Source: Phoenix dactylifera (taxonomy: Eukaryota; Streptophyta; Magnoliopsida; Arecales; Arecaceae). Taken from it: a stretch of DNA of 64,000 bases. Location of the stretch: contig NC_052392.1 in assembly GCF_009389715.1 (NCBI RefSeq), positions 32,337,227 to 32,401,226 of the forward strand. The letters are read 5' to 3'. Below the pieces are notes generated by a model that was not told the origin of the DNA, did not search any database, and saw nothing but the letters and a program-made list of their open reading frames with translations. The position numbers and the translations under genes were made by a program. Shown piece after piece: positions 37,604 to 64,000 of this stretch (position 1 is its first letter; every line of letters begins with the position of its first letter).

Positions 37604-38994
37604 ATGGCGGAGCCCGTTGGGCCCCACGTGCTGGTGATCCCCTACCCGAGCCAGGGCCACATGCTCCCCCTCCTGGACCTCGCCCACCTCCTCTCCTCCC
37701 GCGCCGGCCTCGCCGTCACCATCGTCGTCACCACCAAGAACCGGCCCCTCCTCGACCCCCTGCTCTCCCGCTCCCCCTCCGTCGCCGCGCTTGTCCTCCC
37801 CTTCCCCGACTACCCGGCCCTCCCACCGGGCCTCGAGAACTCCAAGGACCTACCCCACGACTTCTTCCGCCCCCTCATCCACGCCCTCGCCGGCCTCCAA
37901 GACCCCCTCCTCCGCTGGGCTTGCTCCACTCCCCATTCCCTCACCGCCATCGTCTCCGACTACTTGCTCGGCTGGACCGCCGACCTCGCCGCCCAGTTGG
38001 GCATTCCCCACCTCGTCTTCTCCCCCTCCGGTGCCCTCGCCATCGCCGTCTTCAACGTGCTCTGGCGCCGGATGCCTCAAAGATCGGATCTTGACGACCC
38101 CAATTGCCCCATCTCCCTCCCGGAAATCCCCAATTCCCCTGTTTTACCCTGGCGCCAGCTCTCGTTTCTCTATCGGACCCACATAGTAGGAGAACCGATC
38201 TCGGAGTTCCTAAAGGAGGGATTTTTAAAGAACATTGGGAGCTGGGGGTTCGTCTTCAACACATTCGCCGACCTGGAACGGGTCTATCTGGACAACCACC
38301 GGAACGATCTGGGGCACCCGCGGATCTGGGCTTTGGGGCCCCTGGCTCCGCCGGACGGCCCCGTGGAGCGTGGCGGGGTGGCCTCCGCCGCCTCCGGTGA
38401 GATCATGACGTGGCTGGACGGCTGCCCGGAAGGGTCGGTGCTGTTGGTGGCCTTCGGGAGCCACAAATACTGGCGCCGCCGCAAGCGGCGGCACTGGCGG
38501 CGGGCCTGGAGCGGAGCGGGGCGAGGTTTATCTGGTGCGCGAGGGGGGCGACGGCGGTGCCAGAGGGGTTCGAGGGGCGGGTGGCGGGGAAAGGGCTGGT
38601 GGTGCGGGGGTGGGCGCCGCAGGTGGCGATCCTGGGCCACCGGGCGGTAGCCGCGTTCTTGACTCACTGTGGGTAGAACTCGGTGCTGGAAGCGGTGGCT
38701 GCGGGGGTGGCGATGCTGACGTGGCCGATGGTCGCGGACCAGTTCTTGAACGCAAGGCTGGTGGTGGAGGAGGCCGGAGTCGGGGTGGCGCTGTGCGAAG
38801 GCGCCGACGCGGTGCCCGACGCGGACGAGTTGGCCCGAGTCGTGGCCGAGTCGCTAGGCGAGTCGACGAAGGGAGTCAGGGATCGAGCGGAAGAGCTGAG
38901 TCGGCGGGCTTTGGAAGCGGTAAGAGAAGGGGGAAGCTCGTATAAGGAGCTGGACCGACTGGCGGCCGAGCTTTCCAAGGTTGCAGTCAAGTGA
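37604..38994 (+). pseudogene. UGT89-like glycosyltransferase pseudogene (frameshift and stop)
   Basis: Family 1 UDP-glycosyltransferase that would move a sugar from UDP-sugar to a small phenolic acceptor. It resembles the UGT89 group and the intact minus-strand gene at 57558. The start MAEPVGPHVLVIPYPSQGH carries the catalytic His19, and the N-terminal half is intact to about residue 286. At 38462-38464, just after FGS, the frame shifts; one missing base explains it. In the new frame the PSPG sugar-binding box follows (WAPQVAILGH to WPMVADQ), but a TAG at 38674-38676 replaces the conserved Trp of HCGWNS. The remaining C-terminus is open to the stop at 38992. There are no other lesions, so decay is recent, or one or both changes are sequence errors. 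As written it cannot make a full enzyme. Confidence 0.9.
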
Positions 38995-44863: not shown

Positions 44864-47800
44864 ATGACGGATGTCTCCGAGCTCCGCGGCTCCCCGGCCA
44901 AGCGCCTCAAAACCCTAGCTCCGTCTCCCCCTCCCGGCTCTAAGGGCAAGGAGAAGATGGCGGAGGAGCCCGCGTCCGCCGAGGGATTCGCCTCTCTGAC
45001 GGCGGCGGCGGAGGAGACTTGCGGCATCTGCCTCTCCGACGGCGGTCGGTCGATCCGCGGCCGGATCGACAGCTGCGACCACTACTTCTGCTTCATCTGC
45101 ATCATGGAGTGGGCCAAGGTCGAGTCCCGCTGCCCCATGTGCAAGCAGCGCTTCCGATCCATCCGCCGCCCGCCAGTGCCGGAGATCTTCCCCTTCGAGC
45201 GGATGGTCGAGGTTCCAGTTCGCGATCAGGTGAGCTAGGGTACTTTGATCCTTTATATATATATATATATTTTGGTTTAGGCTTTAATTTTTTTACTTTG
45301 TAGTTCTTCTGGATGGATTTGATTGGAATTGGATTCGTTTATATCGGCAAAATTATCCCTGAAACCTGGTACGATTCGAAGCGGGCGAAGTTAACTTTTT
45401 TGAAGCTCATTTGAAGTCCAAAGGATCTCTATGTAGCTCACTTCGTAAATATTGCACGCTGGATTTTGTGCTTATGAAATATTTTAGGGCTTAAAGATAT
45501 GAGGACCCGAAAATGATACGGTGTAATATCGAAAGAAGGTTAAAATAATGAGTAGTTCAGCTCATTTGGTTAGTGCATGTCAAAGCGGTTGATCTTAAAA
45601 GTTTACAGTCGCAAATATTTTTAGTGAACATCCTGTAATATAATATTGAATAAAAAAAGAAGGGGAATATAAATTTCCAGAGATAAGTTAGTAGTAAAAG
45701 TGATATCATCGTTAAATGGGACATGCAATGTAATATTGAATATAAAAGAAGGTAAATGTAAATTTCCCAAGAGAAGTTAGTATGAATAGCGATATCATCA
45801 TTAAATGGGACAAGTGCTTGCGCAACCTCCCAATTTGTATCCATGGTTAGCTAATCTAGGCTGGACTTATTTTTCATTTCTTTTTTTTTTTTTTTGAAAA
45901 ATAAGCTGCATCCCTATATTCTCTTCTAGATTTGGGTGACTCTAGAAGATAGTGATCCTTTTATGTTCTTGATTTCTAATTTTGTCAAATTCTAGGGAGG
46001 TTTGACAAAATGATGTTATATTTTATTTTTTATCTTCCTAAGTATTGGGTTGGGGGGGGGGGGGGGGGGGTGATTAGTCTCCTGTGTTGCCCCTGCATCA
46101 GGCAGGGAAGGAAGCTGAATGATTGAGCGAGGAACATCTCCTTATGAAAGAGTTGTTCAGAGGTCTTCAGACATTTGGAGGTATGGGGAGCACTTGGGCG
46201 AGTCCGAGGTTTCCAACCTTTTCCTTTGGAGGTATAGGACCCTTCATTGCATGGTATTGGTGAGTCCTAGAAATAACAGAATGGCAGATTATAATTTGTG
46301 CATAAAAAAGAGTGGGGGCCTATTCAGTGCAACAATAACTGCCACTTAAAATTGAATGGCATTTATGACCACATTGGCTCTCTCCTCTCATCCTTGTTCC
46401 TCCTGGGTGCATTGCATGTCCAATACTAGTGCCTTTTATACAAAAAATTTTCATAAATTTATTCTTATGGGGTGCAAAATTTCCTGTTAGATTTTTACAT
46501 TGAAGAGATCTGACCTGTATATAGTATGCTAGAAACAAGTGGAATATAAGTTGTCGCATGGGGATTCTGATGTGGTATATTGAATGGGATCATATCTCTG
46601 ATATAGTGCATGGGGATGAGATGAGCATGGCTCTCTGTGATCCAAACAGATAGCCTTCCTGCTATCAGACTTGAGTAACCAACAATAGTCCAATGCCTAG
46701 CATTGATTTTGACTGTCAAGATATCTATGTATTTTATCATCCATTAGATCAGTTCTCTGTCTCTCACTTTGGTCCTCACTGCATCAGTGAGAAAAATGAA
46801 CATACTCTAGAACTTTACACTCCGTAGACCTAGAACTCTGCTCTATTGTGGACATGTGGGCTCTATAATGCGGTCTCCGCTGGTTATTCATATTTCTTTA
46901 ATTGAGTGAAGGGAGGTGATATCATGATTAGGCTTTTACTATGTGCATTCTAATGCTTCTATATGTATTACCATTTCAATAGTGTAGAAGAGTGGTTAAA
47001 TATGCTTGCTTTTGCCCAAAACTATTCTCCACCGGCTTGTCAAGTTTGATTTTAAACATTTTACATATCTTGAAAGAAGTCATATCCAAATTAAACTATG
47101 TTAGCGAAACTTAACCGACCCATTTGGTTGAAACCAAGGATTGCCGAATCGTGCCAAACCGGTTGGTTCGGGCGTACTGAACTGGACTAGTTGGTTACTA
47201 GCATGATTTAGCCCATATATTCGAGTTCAACCCACATATATTCGAGTCGACAGAGTTGAGAGTTTCATTTTTTGGGGTATAGGAGGGTTTCGTACAAGGC
47301 CGTCTCTTGGTCTCTCACAATGGTTCGAGAGAGCCCCCTTCCCTCCCTCTCCTGTTGCTTGTGATGGTTGGAGAGCCCCTCTCCTCCCACCATTCAAGGG
47401 TTTCCTGGTGTCGGACACTGCTTGCTCCCTATTGGCTGTAACTGGGGTTAGCTCCCTCTCTCTCCCTCCCTCTCTCTCCACTAGGGTTAGCTCCCTCTCC
47501 CTCTCCTGCCCTCTCTCTCTCTCTCTCTCTCCACTAGAGTTAGAGTTAGTGTTTAGCGCTCGGCCCTCCCTTTCATCCCTTTATCCCTCTCTCTCTCCCT
47601 CTCTTCTTTTCTTCCTCTCTCCTCACATCTCCCGATTTTTGGTTTGTCCCTGAGTGGCACAGTATGGACCCATTACGTACTGGATTGGTCACCGGATGGT
47701 ACAACCTTTGGTACCGATTCGATGAACCTTGGTTGAAACATCTTGTATGTTTAATTGACTATTCTTTTTTTCTGCTTCTAGGCGGCCCAATGCATGAGTC

Positions 47801-54432: not shown

Positions 54433-55395
54433 TGTTGGGGGGAATAAAGTTTCTCCCCAAATGACATAAATATCCCTAAGAAGCCGTACAACCTCCGACC
54501 CCGGATGGCCGAAGTCAGCGTCGGACCTCGGAACGCCCGGCCACAAGACGACCGACCCCGAAACCTCCGACCTAAGAGAAACCCCGATGTCCGAGGACCG
54601 AACTCTAACACCCCTCCGGCATTTATTGCGTATGGCCGCTGTAATCTTCCGGCACACTCAACAATAAATGCGGATCTCCGGCTTACTCCACCATTAATGC
54701 GGATCTCCGGCTTACTCCATAATAAATGCGGATCTCCGACTTACTCCACAATAAATGCGCATGGCTCCTGACATCTACGGATCCCCAGCTCTCCACGGCA
54801 AATCAACCCAGCAGGGTCTAGTCGACTATGATAAGTCTCTGATCTCGGCCATACCGCCGACATCAGTGCAATGATTCGCCTGACCGAGCGCCGACCTGAA
54901 CAACATGCCAAGCCGTACTACGGCCTCGCCCTGTTACATCACAGGTAAACCGACCCCCGCATATAAAAGGGAGCCTTGGCCTCTCAAGAGGGGATGGGAA
55001 ATATTCATACACCCAAAAATCACTGTTTATCTCCTGCTCCCCACTATTTGCCCCCTCCCTGACTTGAGCGTCGGAGGGCCGGCGCCGGAGAACCCGGCCA
55101 CCGGTTCGTGTGCAGGCACCCGGACGGAGGACGCCGCCAGCCAACGGATCGCCGCCCCGCTGCGAGGACCTGCTGTTCCTTCTCTCCGACCGCCCCAGAC
55201 GGAGGACGCCGCCCGCCGACAGACCGCCGCCCCGCCGTGAGGACTAACAGTCGCTCCCTCTCCTCGGCCGAAGATTGCCCCCGGGTCCAATTTCCAGCAA
55301 CAGGCCCGCCGACAGACCGCCGCCCCGCCGTGAGGACTAACAGTCGCTCCCTCTCCTCGGCCGAAGATTGCCCCCGGGTCCAATTTCCAGCAACA
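54433..55395 (+). mobile_element. Solo LTR with 5-bp target duplication
   Basis: A GC-rich 963-bp unit starting TGTTGGGG and ending CAGCAACA, flanked by perfect 5-bp repeats CTCAG (54428-54432 and 55396-55400). That is a complete long terminal repeat without internal retroelement sequence, left by recombination between two LTRs. A TATA box (TATAAAA, 54962-54968) gives the plus orientation. It contains four 29-bp tandem copies at about 54661-54762 (unit with AATGCGGATCTCCGGCTT). Its last 93 bp are duplicated in tandem (55211-55303 and 55304-55395), so CCAGCAACA occurs twice. A Gypsy origin is likely from LTR composition but not shown. Confidence 0.88.
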
Positions 55396-57557: not shown

Positions 57558-58994
57558 TCACTTCATTTCTACGTACGCAGCTTCGGAGAGCTCCTTGGCC
57601 ATTTGCTCCAGAGCCCGGTACGAGCTCCCCCCTTCTGCCACCGCCTCCGCCGCCGCCCTCCCCAGCTCAGTCGCCCGGACCCTCATCTCCGGCCACGCCC
57701 CCTCCGCCACCGCCTCCACCATCACCCTCGCCAGATCATCCGGCTCCGGCGTCCCCTCCACCCCCTCCCCGACCCTCACCGCCACCCCCAACTCCTCCAC
57801 CAGCAGCCTCGCGTTCACGAACTGGTCCGCCCCCATCGGCCATGCCAGCAGCGTCACTCCCGCCGCCGCCGCCTCCAGCACCGAGTTCCATCCGCAGTGC
57901 GTCACGAACGCCCCCACCGCCCCGTGGTTCAGTATCTGCACCTGCGGCGCCCACCCCCGCACCACCAGCCCCCGCCCCGCCACTCGCCCCTCGAAACCCT
58001 CCGGCACCACCGCTCCGTCGCCGCCGGCGGCCCACACGAACCGCGCCCCGCTCCACTCCAGCGCCGCCGCCAGCGCCCGCCCCTGCTTCTCCGTCGGCGT
58101 GTACTGGCTCCCGAAGCAGGCGTACACCACCGACCGCGGCGGGCACGCGTCCAGCCAAGCCGCCACCTCCTCCACCGGGATGGAGCTCCGGCCGCCGCGC
58201 CCCACCGCAGGACCAGCCGGGGAGATGGGCCCCACCGCCCAGACGCGGGGGTAGGCCCGCTTTAGGTGCGCGAGGAAGGGGCCCTCGAGGGCGTCGAAGG
58301 TGTTGATGGCCGCCCCCCAGCTGCCGGTGGCGTTGGCGAGGAAGCCCTCCCGCATGACTTCCCAGTCCGGGTCGCCGGCCCTGAACCGGCGCCAGACGCC
58401 GGGGAGGTGGTCGAAGGGGAAGACCGGGGAAGAGGGGAGGTCGCAGAGGACGGTGAGGGCGGCGGGGCCGTCGCCGTCCTCGCGGCGGGGCATGCGTTGC
58501 CAGACGTGGTCGACGATGGAGACGGCGAAGGCGCCGGAGGAGTAGAAGACGAGGCGGGGGACTGCTAGATCGGCGGCGAGGCGGTTGGTCCAGCCGAGGA
58601 AGAAGTCGGAGAGGATGGCGGAGGGCGGGTGGGGATGGGATCGGGCCCAGCGGAGGACGTCGGGGCTGAGGAGGGAGAGGGCGCGGACGAGGGTGGCAGT
58701 GGAGATCTGGGCGGGGAGGTCGCGTACGTGCTCGACGCCGGCGGGGAGGGAGGGGTGGGCAGGGAGGGGAAGGGCGAGGGGGCGGGCGGAAGGGACGGCG
58801 GAGAAGAAGGAGTCAAGGAGGGGGAGGTTGGCGGGGGTGACGAGGACGGTGAGCGAGAGGGCGGCGCCGGCGGCGGCGAAGCGGTTGGAGAGGTGGCAGG
58901 CGAGGTCGAGGAGGGGGATGAGGTGGCCCTGAGCCGGGAGCGGGACGAGGAGGAGGTGGACGGGTTGACGACGAGAGTCCTCGGAATTCGCCAT
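57558..58994 (-). CDS. UGT89-like UDP-glycosyltransferase (intact)
   Basis: Soluble family 1 glycosyltransferase, GT-B fold, expected to glucosylate flavonols or other phenolics in the cytosol. Single exon, 478 residues, normal for the family. Catalytic His24 sits in PAQGHLIPLLDLA, and its Asp partner is probably in ILSDFFLGW. The 44-residue PSPG box runs from Trp348 to Gln391, starting WAPQVQILNHG and ending AWPMGADQ; a final Gln usually goes with UDP-glucose. The start MANSEDSRRQP was chosen because it places the first beta-strand (VHLLLVPLP) at the usual distance. The frame stays open 67 codons upstream to a Met at 59195, but that extension is a low-complexity repeat without a signal peptide. 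It is the intact paralogue of the broken gene at 37604, on the opposite strand 19 kb away. Substrate cannot be read from sequence. Confidence 0.92.
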   Translation of the reverse strand: MANSEDSRRQPVHLLLVPLPAQGHLIPLLDLACHLSNRFAAAGAALSLTVLVTPANLPLLDSFFSAVPSARPLALPLPAHPSLPAGVEHVRDLPAQISTATLVRALSLLSPDVLRWARSHPHPPSAILSDFFLGWTNRLAADLAVPRLVFYSSGAFAVSIVDHVWQRMPRREDGDGPAALTVLCDLPSSPVFPFDHLPGVWRRFRAGDPDWEVMREGFLANATGSWGAAINTFDALEGPFLAHLKRAYPRVWAVGPISPAGPAVGRGGRSSIPVEEVAAWLDACPPRSVVYACFGSQYTPTEKQGRALAAALEWSGARFVWAAGGDGAVVPEGFEGRVAGRGLVVRGWAPQVQILNHGAVGAFVTHCGWNSVLEAAAAGVTLLAWPMGADQFVNARLLVEELGVAVRVGEGVEGTPEPDDLARVMVEAVAEGAWPEMRVRATELGRAAAEAVAEGGSSYRALEQMAKELSEAAYVEMK

Positions 58995-59147
58995 CGGGGT
59001 TGAAGGAAGGGGAAGGGAACCGAGAGCTTTTCTCCAAGTCGTCGACAAGTGGGAATCGATAAAAGCTTTACCATTTGGACTCTTTTTTTGGGGGTCAAAA
59101 AATGGGGGTCGGCGTCTTTGTTGGGCCTTATGCATGATCATGATGCG

Positions 59148-59252
59148 ATGGATGCATGGCGCAGGAGATATTGCTGAGCTCATGCATGATCCCACGCTAT
59201 GGCTGAGTTCATGCTATGGATGCATGGCGCAGGAGCTATGGCTGAGGTCATG
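59148..59252. repeat. 68-bp spaced direct repeat upstream of the UGT gene
   Basis: ATGGATGCATGGCGCAGGAG occurs at 59148 and again at 59216, with GCTGAGnTCATG following each. It is a short tandem duplication in the promoter or leader of the intact UGT. Confidence 0.75.
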
Positions 59253-60974: not shown

Positions 60975-61079
60975 TCTCTGTTGCAGAAAGCGAATTTAGG
61001 GAGACTTGCAGAAGAGACTTGCAACAAATTTATAAAGTGGAAAATATATTGGAAATTGCTGGCAGTGTGGGCGAGTACC

Positions 61080-61230
61080 ACCTTCTAGTTCGAGACATCC
61101 AAGCCATAGTCTACGATGGGGTGGCCTTCTGGGTTGTGCATGTCTACAGAGAAACCAATGAGGCCACAGACTGGATGACCTCGTACGTGGCCAACCACTC
61201 TAGGAAGACCCTATGGGTTGAAAAGAGTGA
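61080..61230 (+). pseudogene. LINE RNase H tail, cut by the Copia LTR
   Basis: The frame encodes VRDIQAIVYDGVAFWVVHVY, then RETNEATDWMTSYVANHS and LWVEKS. This is the same RNase H tail as elsewhere, and the open frame continues uninterrupted upstream to 60878. It stops where the Copia LTR begins, so the LTR appears to have inserted into the LINE. Confidence 0.65.
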
Positions 61231-63078
61231 TGTGGAGTGATTGATTAAAACCCTATTTGATTTTGATGAGCTCAAAGCATTTGAGTATATCTTTTGTTTA
61301 CTAATGAATTCAATTGAGTGTTTCAGTGAAAATCTTGTCTAAGTATTTCTAGACTTGGTTCAAGATATTTTGGATAAGTTAAGAAGTCAGTTTGAACCAA
61401 AGTCTGAGACTCGAGTCGACTCCGGAATATTACGAGTCGACTCCAAGCGTATCAGAATCACTGGCACAGGCTCGAGTCGACTCCGGATCATTACGAGTCG
61501 ACTCCGACTGAGAACTGACAGACGAACAGAAAGACTCAACTCAAAACCTGTCAGCGAGTCGACTCCTGAAGTGCGCGAGTCGACTCCGATGATTACCGAG
61601 TCGACTCCGGAGTAGTATGAGTCGACTCCAAGGAGTTACAGACAGAAAAGTCAGAGAGCAGTTTTCGGACTCTGAAATCCGAGTCGACTCCCGCAATGCG
61701 CGAGTCGACTCCGAGACAGCGCGACCCCAAAAAGACAGAAGACCGAATTATTGTCTCTGAGAGCCGAGTCGACTCCCAGACAGCTCGAGTCGACTCCAAG
61801 GCAGCGCTACATCAAAAAGGCAGAAGGCTATGTTTCGAAAACTGAGAGCCGAGTCGACTCCGGAACAGTTCGAGTCGACTCCAAGACTGGACGAGCCAAA
61901 AGACAGAAGATCGGGAGTTCAGGCTCTGAGCGCCGAGTCGACTCCTAGGATTGTCGAGTCGACTCGAGTGGGCCAAGTTGAAAAATTAGCTCCATGGACT
62001 TCATGGGATGAGCCGACTCCGAAAATGGCAAGACAGCTCCAGAAGTTGGCGAGTCGACTCCGGGTTAAGTCGAGTCGACTCCCGGTCGCGGAGGTCACTT
62101 TAATTCAAATCCGGAACAGTTGCCGAGCCGACTCCAGAAAAGCATGAGTCGACTCCCGCTACAGCCGAGTCGACTTCAGATCGCGCGAGTCGACTCCGAC
62201 CCCAACGGACATATTGTCAGGATGTGCAGAGTGTGCAGAACGGGCAGAAAAAGGTGTCTAACGGCTAGTTTCCGTGGGGGATGGCTTAAATAGCCACAGA
62301 GGACTGTAGCAAGGTAGACAAGCACCATTCCACTCAAAGAAATCAAGCATCCTATCTCTGCCAATTGGTTTTCAACAGAAAAGAAGGAAGAGCGCCATTA
62401 ACTCCATCCAGCTACCTCTTCCCAGCATAAAAAGAAGTCTCCTCCTGCCTTCAAGTCGACCAGACATTCAAGAGGAGACTCACAGTTCAAGAAGCCCTAC
62501 TCTACTCCAACTCAAACATGTTTGAGGGCTCTTAACTTCTCTCTAGTTTATATTGCTGTATATCTGTTTTTTAGAAGCTCTGTTTTTCTGTTTGTCCTTG
62601 TTCTTTCCATCTTGTCTTTGCTTGATTCAATCAGGGGATTGAATCAAGAGTGTAGAGGTTGGTTGGTGAGCCGAGGGTAAAACCAACGTGTAAGGGTTCG
62701 ATTGTGATCCCGGAAAAACAATCGGGGTGGTTCTAGTCGGTGAGCCTGGAAAAATCGACCGAGTTCGTTGTGAGCTCGTAAAACAACAAGTTGAGTTGTG
62801 AGCTTATAAAACAACCGGCTGTAATCCAAGGGGTTATAGTGAATTCCCAAGTGAGACTTGGGGAGTGGACGTAGGAGCAAGGGTTAGCTCCGAACCACTA
62901 TAAACATTGTGTTTGTGATTGCTTGTGTCTCTCTCTCTCACTCTCATTTCACTCACAGCACATAGCAACTAATTAATCATCTTGCAAAAGTATTAATTAG
63001 TCATCCACAAACGTTTTAATTGCAAAATTATTTTAAAACCCAATTCACCCCCCTCTTGGGTTGTCTATCTGGGCAACA
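61231..63078 (+). mobile_element. 5' LTR of a SIRE-type Copia retrotransposon
   Basis: A unit of about 1.85 kb starting near TGTGGAGTGATTG and ending GGGCAACA, placed directly before a primer-binding site and gag. The length is typical of the SIRE/Maximus Copia lineage. The first third (61413-62200) is packed with the palindrome GAGTCGACTC. A TATA-like TTAAATA lies near 62285. The 3' LTR lies beyond the window. The left border is approximate because no second LTR is available for comparison. Confidence 0.78.
61413..62200. repeat. Array of GAGTCGACTC palindromes, 21-bp paired spacing
   Basis: Starts of GAGTCGACT: 61413, 61434, 61474, 61495, 61556, 61577, 61598, 61619, 61681, 61702, 61766, 61787, 61851, 61872, 61935, 61956, 62051, 62072, 62146, 62167 and 62187; one-base variants (GAGCCGACT) at 62010 and 62125. 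Nearly every partner is exactly 21 bp away (one is 20). The sequence between palindromes varies, while the palindrome itself hardly does. Confidence 0.93.
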
Positions 63079-63080
63079 AG

Positions 63081-63092
63081 TGGTATCAGAGC
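63081..63092 (+). other. Primer-binding site (initiator Met tRNA)
   Basis: TGGTATCAGAGC, complementary to the 3' end of plant initiator Met tRNA, lies two bases after the LTR end. It is the standard priming site for Copia reverse transcription. Confidence 0.9.
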
Positions 63093-63126
63093 CTAAACTC
63101 TTCTACCCTAAGAGTAAAAGATCAAA

Positions 63127-64000
63127 ATGACAACCCCATTTGGATCTTCCCACATTGAGGGTCAGTCCACCCAAAGACCCCCATTCTTTAATGGATCCGA
63201 CTACTCATATTGGAAGGTTAGGATGAGAATATTTATCCAAGCCCAAGACTATGAGATGTGGACCATTGTAATAAATGGACCATACATCCCATCCATCTAT
63301 GTAGAGGGTGTCACTGTACCCAAACTCGAAAAGGATTGGGATGACCATGACATGAGAAAGGCACAACTCAATTCCAAAGCAATGAATGTGCTTTAATGTG
63401 CATTAGATAGGAATGAATTTAATAGAGTCTCTACTTGCAATTCTGCAAAAGAGATTTGGGATAGACTTGAAGTGACCCATGAGGGCACGAATCAAGTCAA
63501 AGAATCCAAAATAAACATATTGGTTTATAAGTATGAACTATTTAAGATGGATTCTAATGAAACAATCACTTGCATGTTCACTAGATTTACTGACATTGTC
63601 AATGGCCTAAAAAGCCTTGGCAAAAACTATACTAACAGTGATCTTGTCAGGAAGATTCTTCGCTGTCTACCAAGATCATGGAAAGCCAAGGTGACGGCAA
63701 TCCAAGAAGCCAAGGACTTGAACAAGCTACCACTTGAGGAGCTTCTTGGATCCCTAATGACGCACGAGCTAACAATGAAGCAACACAGCGAAGAAGAGTC
63801 CTCCCATAAGAAAAAGGTAATAGCTCTCAAATCTACATCATCTAACAAAGACTTGTCTTGCAGTAGCAGCAGTGAAGAAGAAGATCATGAGGGAGAGGAT
63901 GATGAGGCTCTTCTCGTACGTAAGTTCAGAAGATTCATCAACCAAAAGAAGTCCTTTCATCAAAGGAGAGGCCCCTCAAATTTCTATCGAAAGGATAAAG
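63127..64000 (+). pseudogene. Copia gag, N-terminal part with an internal stop
   Basis: The frame starts MTTPFGSSHIEGQ and shows the Copia gag N-terminal domain (FNGSDYSYWKVRM), followed by the UBN2-type gag core (EIWDRLEVTHEGTNQVKES; ILRCLPRSWKAKVTAIQ) and an acidic Ser/Glu stretch. A TAA at 63394-63396 interrupts an otherwise open frame that runs to the window edge. The zinc knuckle and pol are outside. One stop suggests a fairly young but non-functional copy, or a sequence error. Confidence 0.85.

Follow-up and report, generated by a model that had tools for sequence, protein, structure and literature searches.

Palindromes paired at 21 bp in the U3 of a Sirevirus-like Copia LTR of Phoenix dactylifera: candidate promoter-proximal sites for a host DNA-binding factor

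The window, a stretch of 64,000 nucleotides of Phoenix dactylifera (contig NC_052392.1, positions 32,337,227 to 32,401,226, forward strand), has a Copia retrotransposon as its last feature, and the window end falls within it. Outside the element, two UDP-glycosyltransferase-like genes lie in inverted orientation at 37604-38984 and 57558-59195 (67.5% DNA identity over 1,370 aligned bases); a Pfam UDPGT match was obtained only in 57558-59195, and the first reading of 37604-38984 was without a match. Short direct duplications are present at 45634-45812 and 55119-55395 (83% and 79% identical). A LINE remnant at 61046-61230 (RNase H-like reading made by eye) is apparently the insertion site of the element, and AGTGA ahead of the LTR is a possible target duplication. 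The features of the element within the window are:

61231..63078, + strand, 5' LTR of a Copia (Sirevirus-like) retrotransposon, TG...CA, 1848 bp, ends placed by comparison of the 5' and 3' LTRs of relatives
61413..62196, + strand, palindrome array in U3, 20 exact and 3 one-mismatch copies of GAGTCGACTC, pairs 21 bp apart, footprint C-GAGTCGACTC-C-N-R
61668..61945, + strand, 85-bp tandem repeat, 3.3 copies, 73% match, palindrome pairs inside
62286..62292, + strand, TATA-like TTAAATA, 99 bp downstream of where the last palindrome starts
63046..63055, + strand, C-rich stretch CACCCCCCTC, 23 bp ahead of the LTR end at 63078
63079..63093, + strand, agtggtatcagagcc, which we take to be the primer binding site region
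63127..64000, + strand, gag, copia type, running off the window (Retrotran_gag_2, E 8.6e-20 for the open part 63472-63999)

The copia-type gag places the element in the Copia superfamily. Reading by eye showed a single in-frame stop in the gag of this copy, TAA at 63394, and the portion of gag within the window contained no palindrome array. By eye, target duplications of 5 bp were recognised in 5 of 6 LTR pairs of relatives inspected. Sireviruses have multiple polypurine tracts before the 3' LTR; in relatives, a 16-letter stretch was seen at the 3' LTR junction, the one place covered. The position of CACCCCCCTC matches the Sirevirus integrase signal (C-rich, ~21 bp before the LTR end) given in the portion of PMC2829016 available to us.

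The array begins 182 bp from the LTR start, and its one-mismatch sites lie at 62010, 62125 and 62167. With up to 2 mismatches allowed, GAGTCGACTC was found 43 times in the window, against 11.5 expected (100 shuffles, largest 22). From one site to the next, the 23 copies are spaced, in order, by 21, 40, 21, 61, 21, 21, 21, 62, 21, 64, 21, 64, 21, 63, 21, 54, 41, 21, 53, 21, 21 and 20 bp; 12 of these 22 spacings are exactly 21 bp, one is 20 bp, and there is a single run of four sites. The 11-bp spacers are unlike each other. A preliminary description of this DNA, made from the letters alone, had reported about twenty palindromes in under 800 bp of a Copia LTR, paired at a fixed 21 bp with differing filler, and all of this was borne out. 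Its further statement that plain tandem duplication would not account for the array stood in part: tandem structure is present at both 21 and 85 bp, and since the 85-bp repeat runs through 61668-61945 in 3.3 copies, tandem duplication took part in the making of the array; the uneven decay of word and filler is left unexplained by duplication alone. The CpG observed/expected ratio is 1.29 in the array versus 0.46 in the remainder of the LTR, and predicted RNA folding of the array is strong (z -6.1, 20 shuffles).

The array was compared across 31 LTRs falling into two groups. The start of the last palindrome lies 99 bp upstream of the TATA-like box in 9 of the 10 group A LTRs and 101 bp upstream of it in the tenth; in group B the distance is 107-109 bp in all 21. 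The depth of the last site into the LTR varies from 505 to 1079 bp across the same 31 LTRs. A sigma-70 promoter scan, the model of which is not meant for plants, returned nothing. Genome-wide counts were made on the Phoenix dactylifera assembly (773 Mb), in which the element has thousands of copies. Exact GAGTCGACTC pairs at 21 bp numbered 87,478 (42,972 + 44,506), and a word taken from the window LTR, in its 3' half, gave 10,863 matches with up to 2 mismatches; the reversed control gave 0 in both cases. Such pair counts reflect how many copies of each single slot exist; they do not represent independent events. No match was found in the viral contigs and plasmids searched.

Substitutions in the palindrome were compared within and between elements. 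The within-element sample consisted of 30 LTR pairs, the 5' against the 3' LTR of one element; the primer-site word TGGTATCAGAGC followed one copy in 22 of the 30 pairs, and 4 of the other 8 loci end before the LTR end. Because the two LTRs of an element are identical at insertion, their differences arose later and are largely unselected. Within the 30 elements, 47/5170 palindrome, 162/13655 filler and 338/37033 remaining LTR sites differed (41/5163, 161/13655 and 338/37033 by a simpler count), the palindrome changing somewhat less than the filler (p 0.021) and not less than the rest of the LTR (p 0.43). For the between-element set, 123 of the 465 pairs among the 31 LTRs were used, having a filler divergence of 0.05-0.26 and enough filler, and 10 disjoint pairs among these 123 formed the main sample. 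Palindromes were masked before alignment so as not to steer it, and shifted sites were re-matched. Palindrome sites then differed at 36/1910 positions, filler at 686/4833 and the LTR outside the array at 973/11578 (between-element Fisher p 1e-12); with 5 replaced sites included, the palindrome count rose to 75/1960 (p 5e-6). Before sites were re-matched, masked alignment had given a weaker contrast (99/1944; p was 0.0066 relative to filler at 686/4833 and 0.36 relative to the outside LTR), a difference ascribed to masked sites that had moved by a few alignment columns.

Unmasked alignments gave 35/1924 for the palindrome versus 622/4787 for the filler, and the bootstrapped unmasked ratio of palindrome to filler was 0.14 (0.075-0.22) between elements and 0.67 (0.43-1.00) within them. 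The palindrome changed less than the filler in all 10 disjoint pairs. When all 465 comparisons were binned by filler divergence, palindrome/filler ranged from 0.21 to 0.46 and palindrome/outside from 0.16 to 0.39 except in the most diverged bin (108 of the 465), where the latter was 0.99 and the palindrome was no better kept than the outside LTR. Judged from these alignments, the palindrome changes roughly 4 to 7 times more slowly than the filler between elements, and about like the rest of the LTR within them. Slow change between elements together with near-neutral change within them argues that the word is kept during the spread of the element. The preliminary description had named palindromes mutating as fast as the filler as the observation that would speak against a binding-site array; this was not seen between elements and was approached only after insertion, a combination that would be expected of a site serving the element.

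Variants of the word were divided by whether both LTRs of an element carry them. Those common to both, and thus older than the insertion, numbered 89 (34 GAGCCGACTC, 17 GAGTCGTCTC, 14 AGGTCGACTC and others), being partly inherited so that events are fewer than counts; single CpG transitions made up 2 of the 89, and the CpG is also lost in 11 of the 27 shared variants with more than one change. Among 33 variants private to one LTR, 14 were single CpG transitions and one was GAGCCGACTC, the commonest change after insertion being CpG loss. In both LTR groups, GAGCCGACTC recurs at slots ~177, 62, 41 and 20 bp upstream of the last site, and changes of the GAGTCGTCTC type were found at 62, 157 and 175 bp upstream of it. 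Two cores, GCCGAC and GTCGTC, recur among the older variants, and the favoured core is thus G[T/C]CG[A/T]C. Outside the word, C at -1 and C at +10 are kept at 0.89 each, and a purine stands at +12 in 517 of the 520 exact sites of the 31 LTRs, which are homologous rather than independent, and in 23/23 sites in the window. The footprint C-GAGTCGACTC-C-N-R is one-sided and not fully symmetric. The dimeric factor that the preliminary description had offered as an example is disfavoured by this asymmetric C...C-N-R flank and by the persistence of symmetry-breaking variants.

For spacing, the filler-divergence limit was set at 0.30, which gave 179 pairs, 11 of them disjoint. In these 11, 115 of the 120 orthologous slots of up to 22 bp were unchanged, 2 differed by 1 bp and 3 by 20, 21 or 40 bp, so that the 21-bp spacing is conserved, as had been proposed. 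The 11-bp spacer had 2 small indels to 200 substitutions, longer spacers 33 to 652 and the LTR outside 70 to 1176, a deficit in the 11-bp spacer of p 0.012 versus longer spacers and p 0.0025 versus outside; within elements, 2 small indels were found in 3,400 spacer bases, numbers too small for a difference to emerge. The 11-bp spacer of the pairs thus keeps its length. The preliminary description had also placed the palindromes on one face of the helix. The 278 spacings other than 21 bp, which come from the 31 LTRs and 8 further stretches (L057 repeating the place of L065) and are homologous, gave a best period of 10.5, and 13 hand-chosen elementary slots gave R 0.74 (p ~7e-4); the best period moved to 11.0 once locus L058 was included. 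Pairs at other distances numbered, genome-wide, 74 at 24-29 bp, 2,953 at 30-33 bp, 2,645 at 34-38 bp and 203 at 45-50 bp, and about nine in ten of 100 listed pairs of the 34-38-bp class were at 37 bp, or 3.5 turns. A helical rule for all spacings was rejected, given the shift of the period with L058 and the common 37-bp slot. Since that slot is half a turn out, only the 21-bp pairing was retained, and the arrangement is better described, from its spacings, as a fixed pair than as a fully phased array.

Related arrays were found elsewhere. In L053-L056, picked since the pattern search had listed pairs there, the array lies in an open gag frame as ESTPxxx heptads, 21 bp being 7 codons. The gag palindrome arrays, mostly in frame, are at:

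L053:91-247
L054:383-539
L055:311-383
L056:370-651
L003:1438-1677

The last three sites of L056 and L003 are in another frame, and in L003 a stop precedes them. The L056 gag matches only positions 9-86 of 172 in the gag family model and the match ends before the array, which apparently takes the place of the second half of the gag domain. Of 2,856 candidates genome-wide, the 40 matches scored were 98-100% identical. A second array, with 19 copies (up to 1 mismatch) of the word G[A/G]GTCGACCC, lies on the reverse strand at L014:60-1100, and 12 of its 18 spacings are exactly 21 bp. Some 37-bp pairs lie between two LTR words of one element, by arithmetic ~7 kb from the 5' LTR start; two examples are:

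C1:23857875-23857922, opposite strand, 37-bp pair
C1:22172109-22172156, opposite strand, 37-bp pair

These pairs may represent the array that Sireviruses have before ENV.

Repeated or symmetric U3 boxes of the Tnt1 type are thought to act on transcription; they number two or three repeats per LTR and have other words, whereas about twenty sites are present here. Closer likenesses are found in the palindromic repeated motifs (RM) that Bousios et al. 2010 (PMC2829016) described in Sirevirus LTRs upstream of the TATA box, accompanied by CpG islands and by extra copies before ENV, and for which any role was said to need promoter experiments. In the portion of that paper available to us, RMs are high-copy, CpG-rich palindromes with divergent flanks that sit in the upper LTR half, ahead of the TATA box, and some Sireviruses have extra copies in the internal region, as do some relatives here. 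Where at least 8 palindromes in the element, clustered in the LTR, are called for, the window LTR has 20 exact and 3 near copies, and its cluster is CpG-rich (1.29 vs 0.46), begins in the upper half (182 bp in) and lies shortly before the TATA-like box (99 bp after the start of the last site). The Vitis RM CGGTCGACCG has the kernel GTCGAC in common with GAGTCGACTC (PMC2829016), but GAGTCGACTC is without the CGG-CCG core signature of Sirevirus RMs, as is Tnd-1 in a table of the same paper. As far as its accessible text goes, PMC2829016 holds neither fixed 21-bp pairing, asymmetric flank, selection contrast nor tolerated-variant set ('helical' and 'spacing' are each found a single time, in the title of a reference), and its RM description differs from the present arrays in that these also lie inside gag. 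Maize Sireviruses have palindrome clusters in the LTR cis-region too, with another word, CACCGGACNNNGTCCGGTG (PMC10760457, in part). A literature search returned neither GAGTCGACTC nor fixed 21-bp pairing in Sirevirus LTRs within the partial texts covered, and Bousios et al. 2016 could contain it; a full-text search for GAGTCGACTC gave, by title, no plant LTR among the matches listed. In the features answered here, the array fits this known kind except for the CGG-CCG signature.

The array probably consists of U3 promoter-proximal sites for a sequence-specific host DNA-binding factor that aids transcription of the element. A word preserved while the element spreads and released after insertion would serve the element, and its place in U3, nearly fixed relative to the TATA-like box, points to a host factor that activates transcription. 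Under this mechanism, a protein would bind the sites, would activate transcription and not repress it, and would occupy neighbouring sites, spaced by two helical turns, together. An AP2/DREB-type protein is a candidate factor, as a lead only, because the barley CBF motif (G/a)(C/t)CGAC (reported in a reference title in PMC3602543) covers both GTCGAC and the recurrent variant GCCGAC.

A role at the RNA level, with the palindromes pairing in the U3 part of the genomic RNA as hairpins or for dimerisation or packaging, would fit the folding score of the array and the ability of neighbours 21 apart to form a 10-bp stem with an 11-nt loop. It is nevertheless unlikely: recurrent GAGCCGACTC and GAGTCGTCTC break the dyad, which is evidence against a need for perfect hairpins, the palindrome was kept in only 1 of 33 two-change sites (~1 expected by our own estimate), and the array is anchored to the TATA-like box. 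Recognition by the host as the main role, the array being a small-RNA hotspot, draws on the maize Sirevirus LTR palindromes described as such hotspots (PMC5311732 and PMC10760457, in the parts available) and on the CpG transitions among private changes (14/33), which fit methylation after insertion. The preliminary description had allowed for silencing as a function, but preservation before insertion must favour the element and silencing would favour loss of the word, which makes such a main role quite unlikely; silencing may be a side effect.

That a decayed tandem repeat without function was multiplied in 21-bp and 85-bp units, its word kept by chance or by recent origin, would agree with the 85-bp tandem array, with the 21-bp period and with C...C flanks in one orientation, which suggest a single ancestral unit. 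Orthologous word and filler are equally old, however, yet the gap in their rates of change is ~four- to sevenfold when elements are compared and much smaller inside single elements, and this very unlikely account is already contradicted by the within/between contrast. Homogenisation at the palindromes, by template switching or gene conversion, is still harder to credit as what keeps the words alike: unit gains and losses of 20, 21 and 40 bp do occur, but conversion would have to affect 12-14 bp only while sparing the filler, and both LTR groups retain variants tied to particular slots, such as GAGCCGACTC at ~-177. We know of no conversion process so confined.

If the binding-site reading is true, GAGCCGACTC and GAGTCGTCTC would compete for the factor and GAGTCAACTC and GAGTTGACTC would not. 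A bolder form of it, which we regard as speculative and rather doubtful, is that one host factor with the 14-bp oriented footprint C-GAGTCGACTC-C-N-R (core G[T/C]CG[A/T]C) drives thousands of elements via sites paired at two helical turns, that the more than 80,000 paired sites could titrate this factor, and that the array taken into gag in frame (ESTPxxx) in a sister group may serve as both DNA signal and protein. The contrast between change within and between elements provides sequence evidence for selection on such an array, acting for the element. It also leaves a 14-bp footprint open to testing, in which some changes recur and others are avoided, together with a spacing that can be varied. 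Should a host factor be found, tens of thousands of its sites would lie in one retrotransposon family, and their competition with host genes would become testable.
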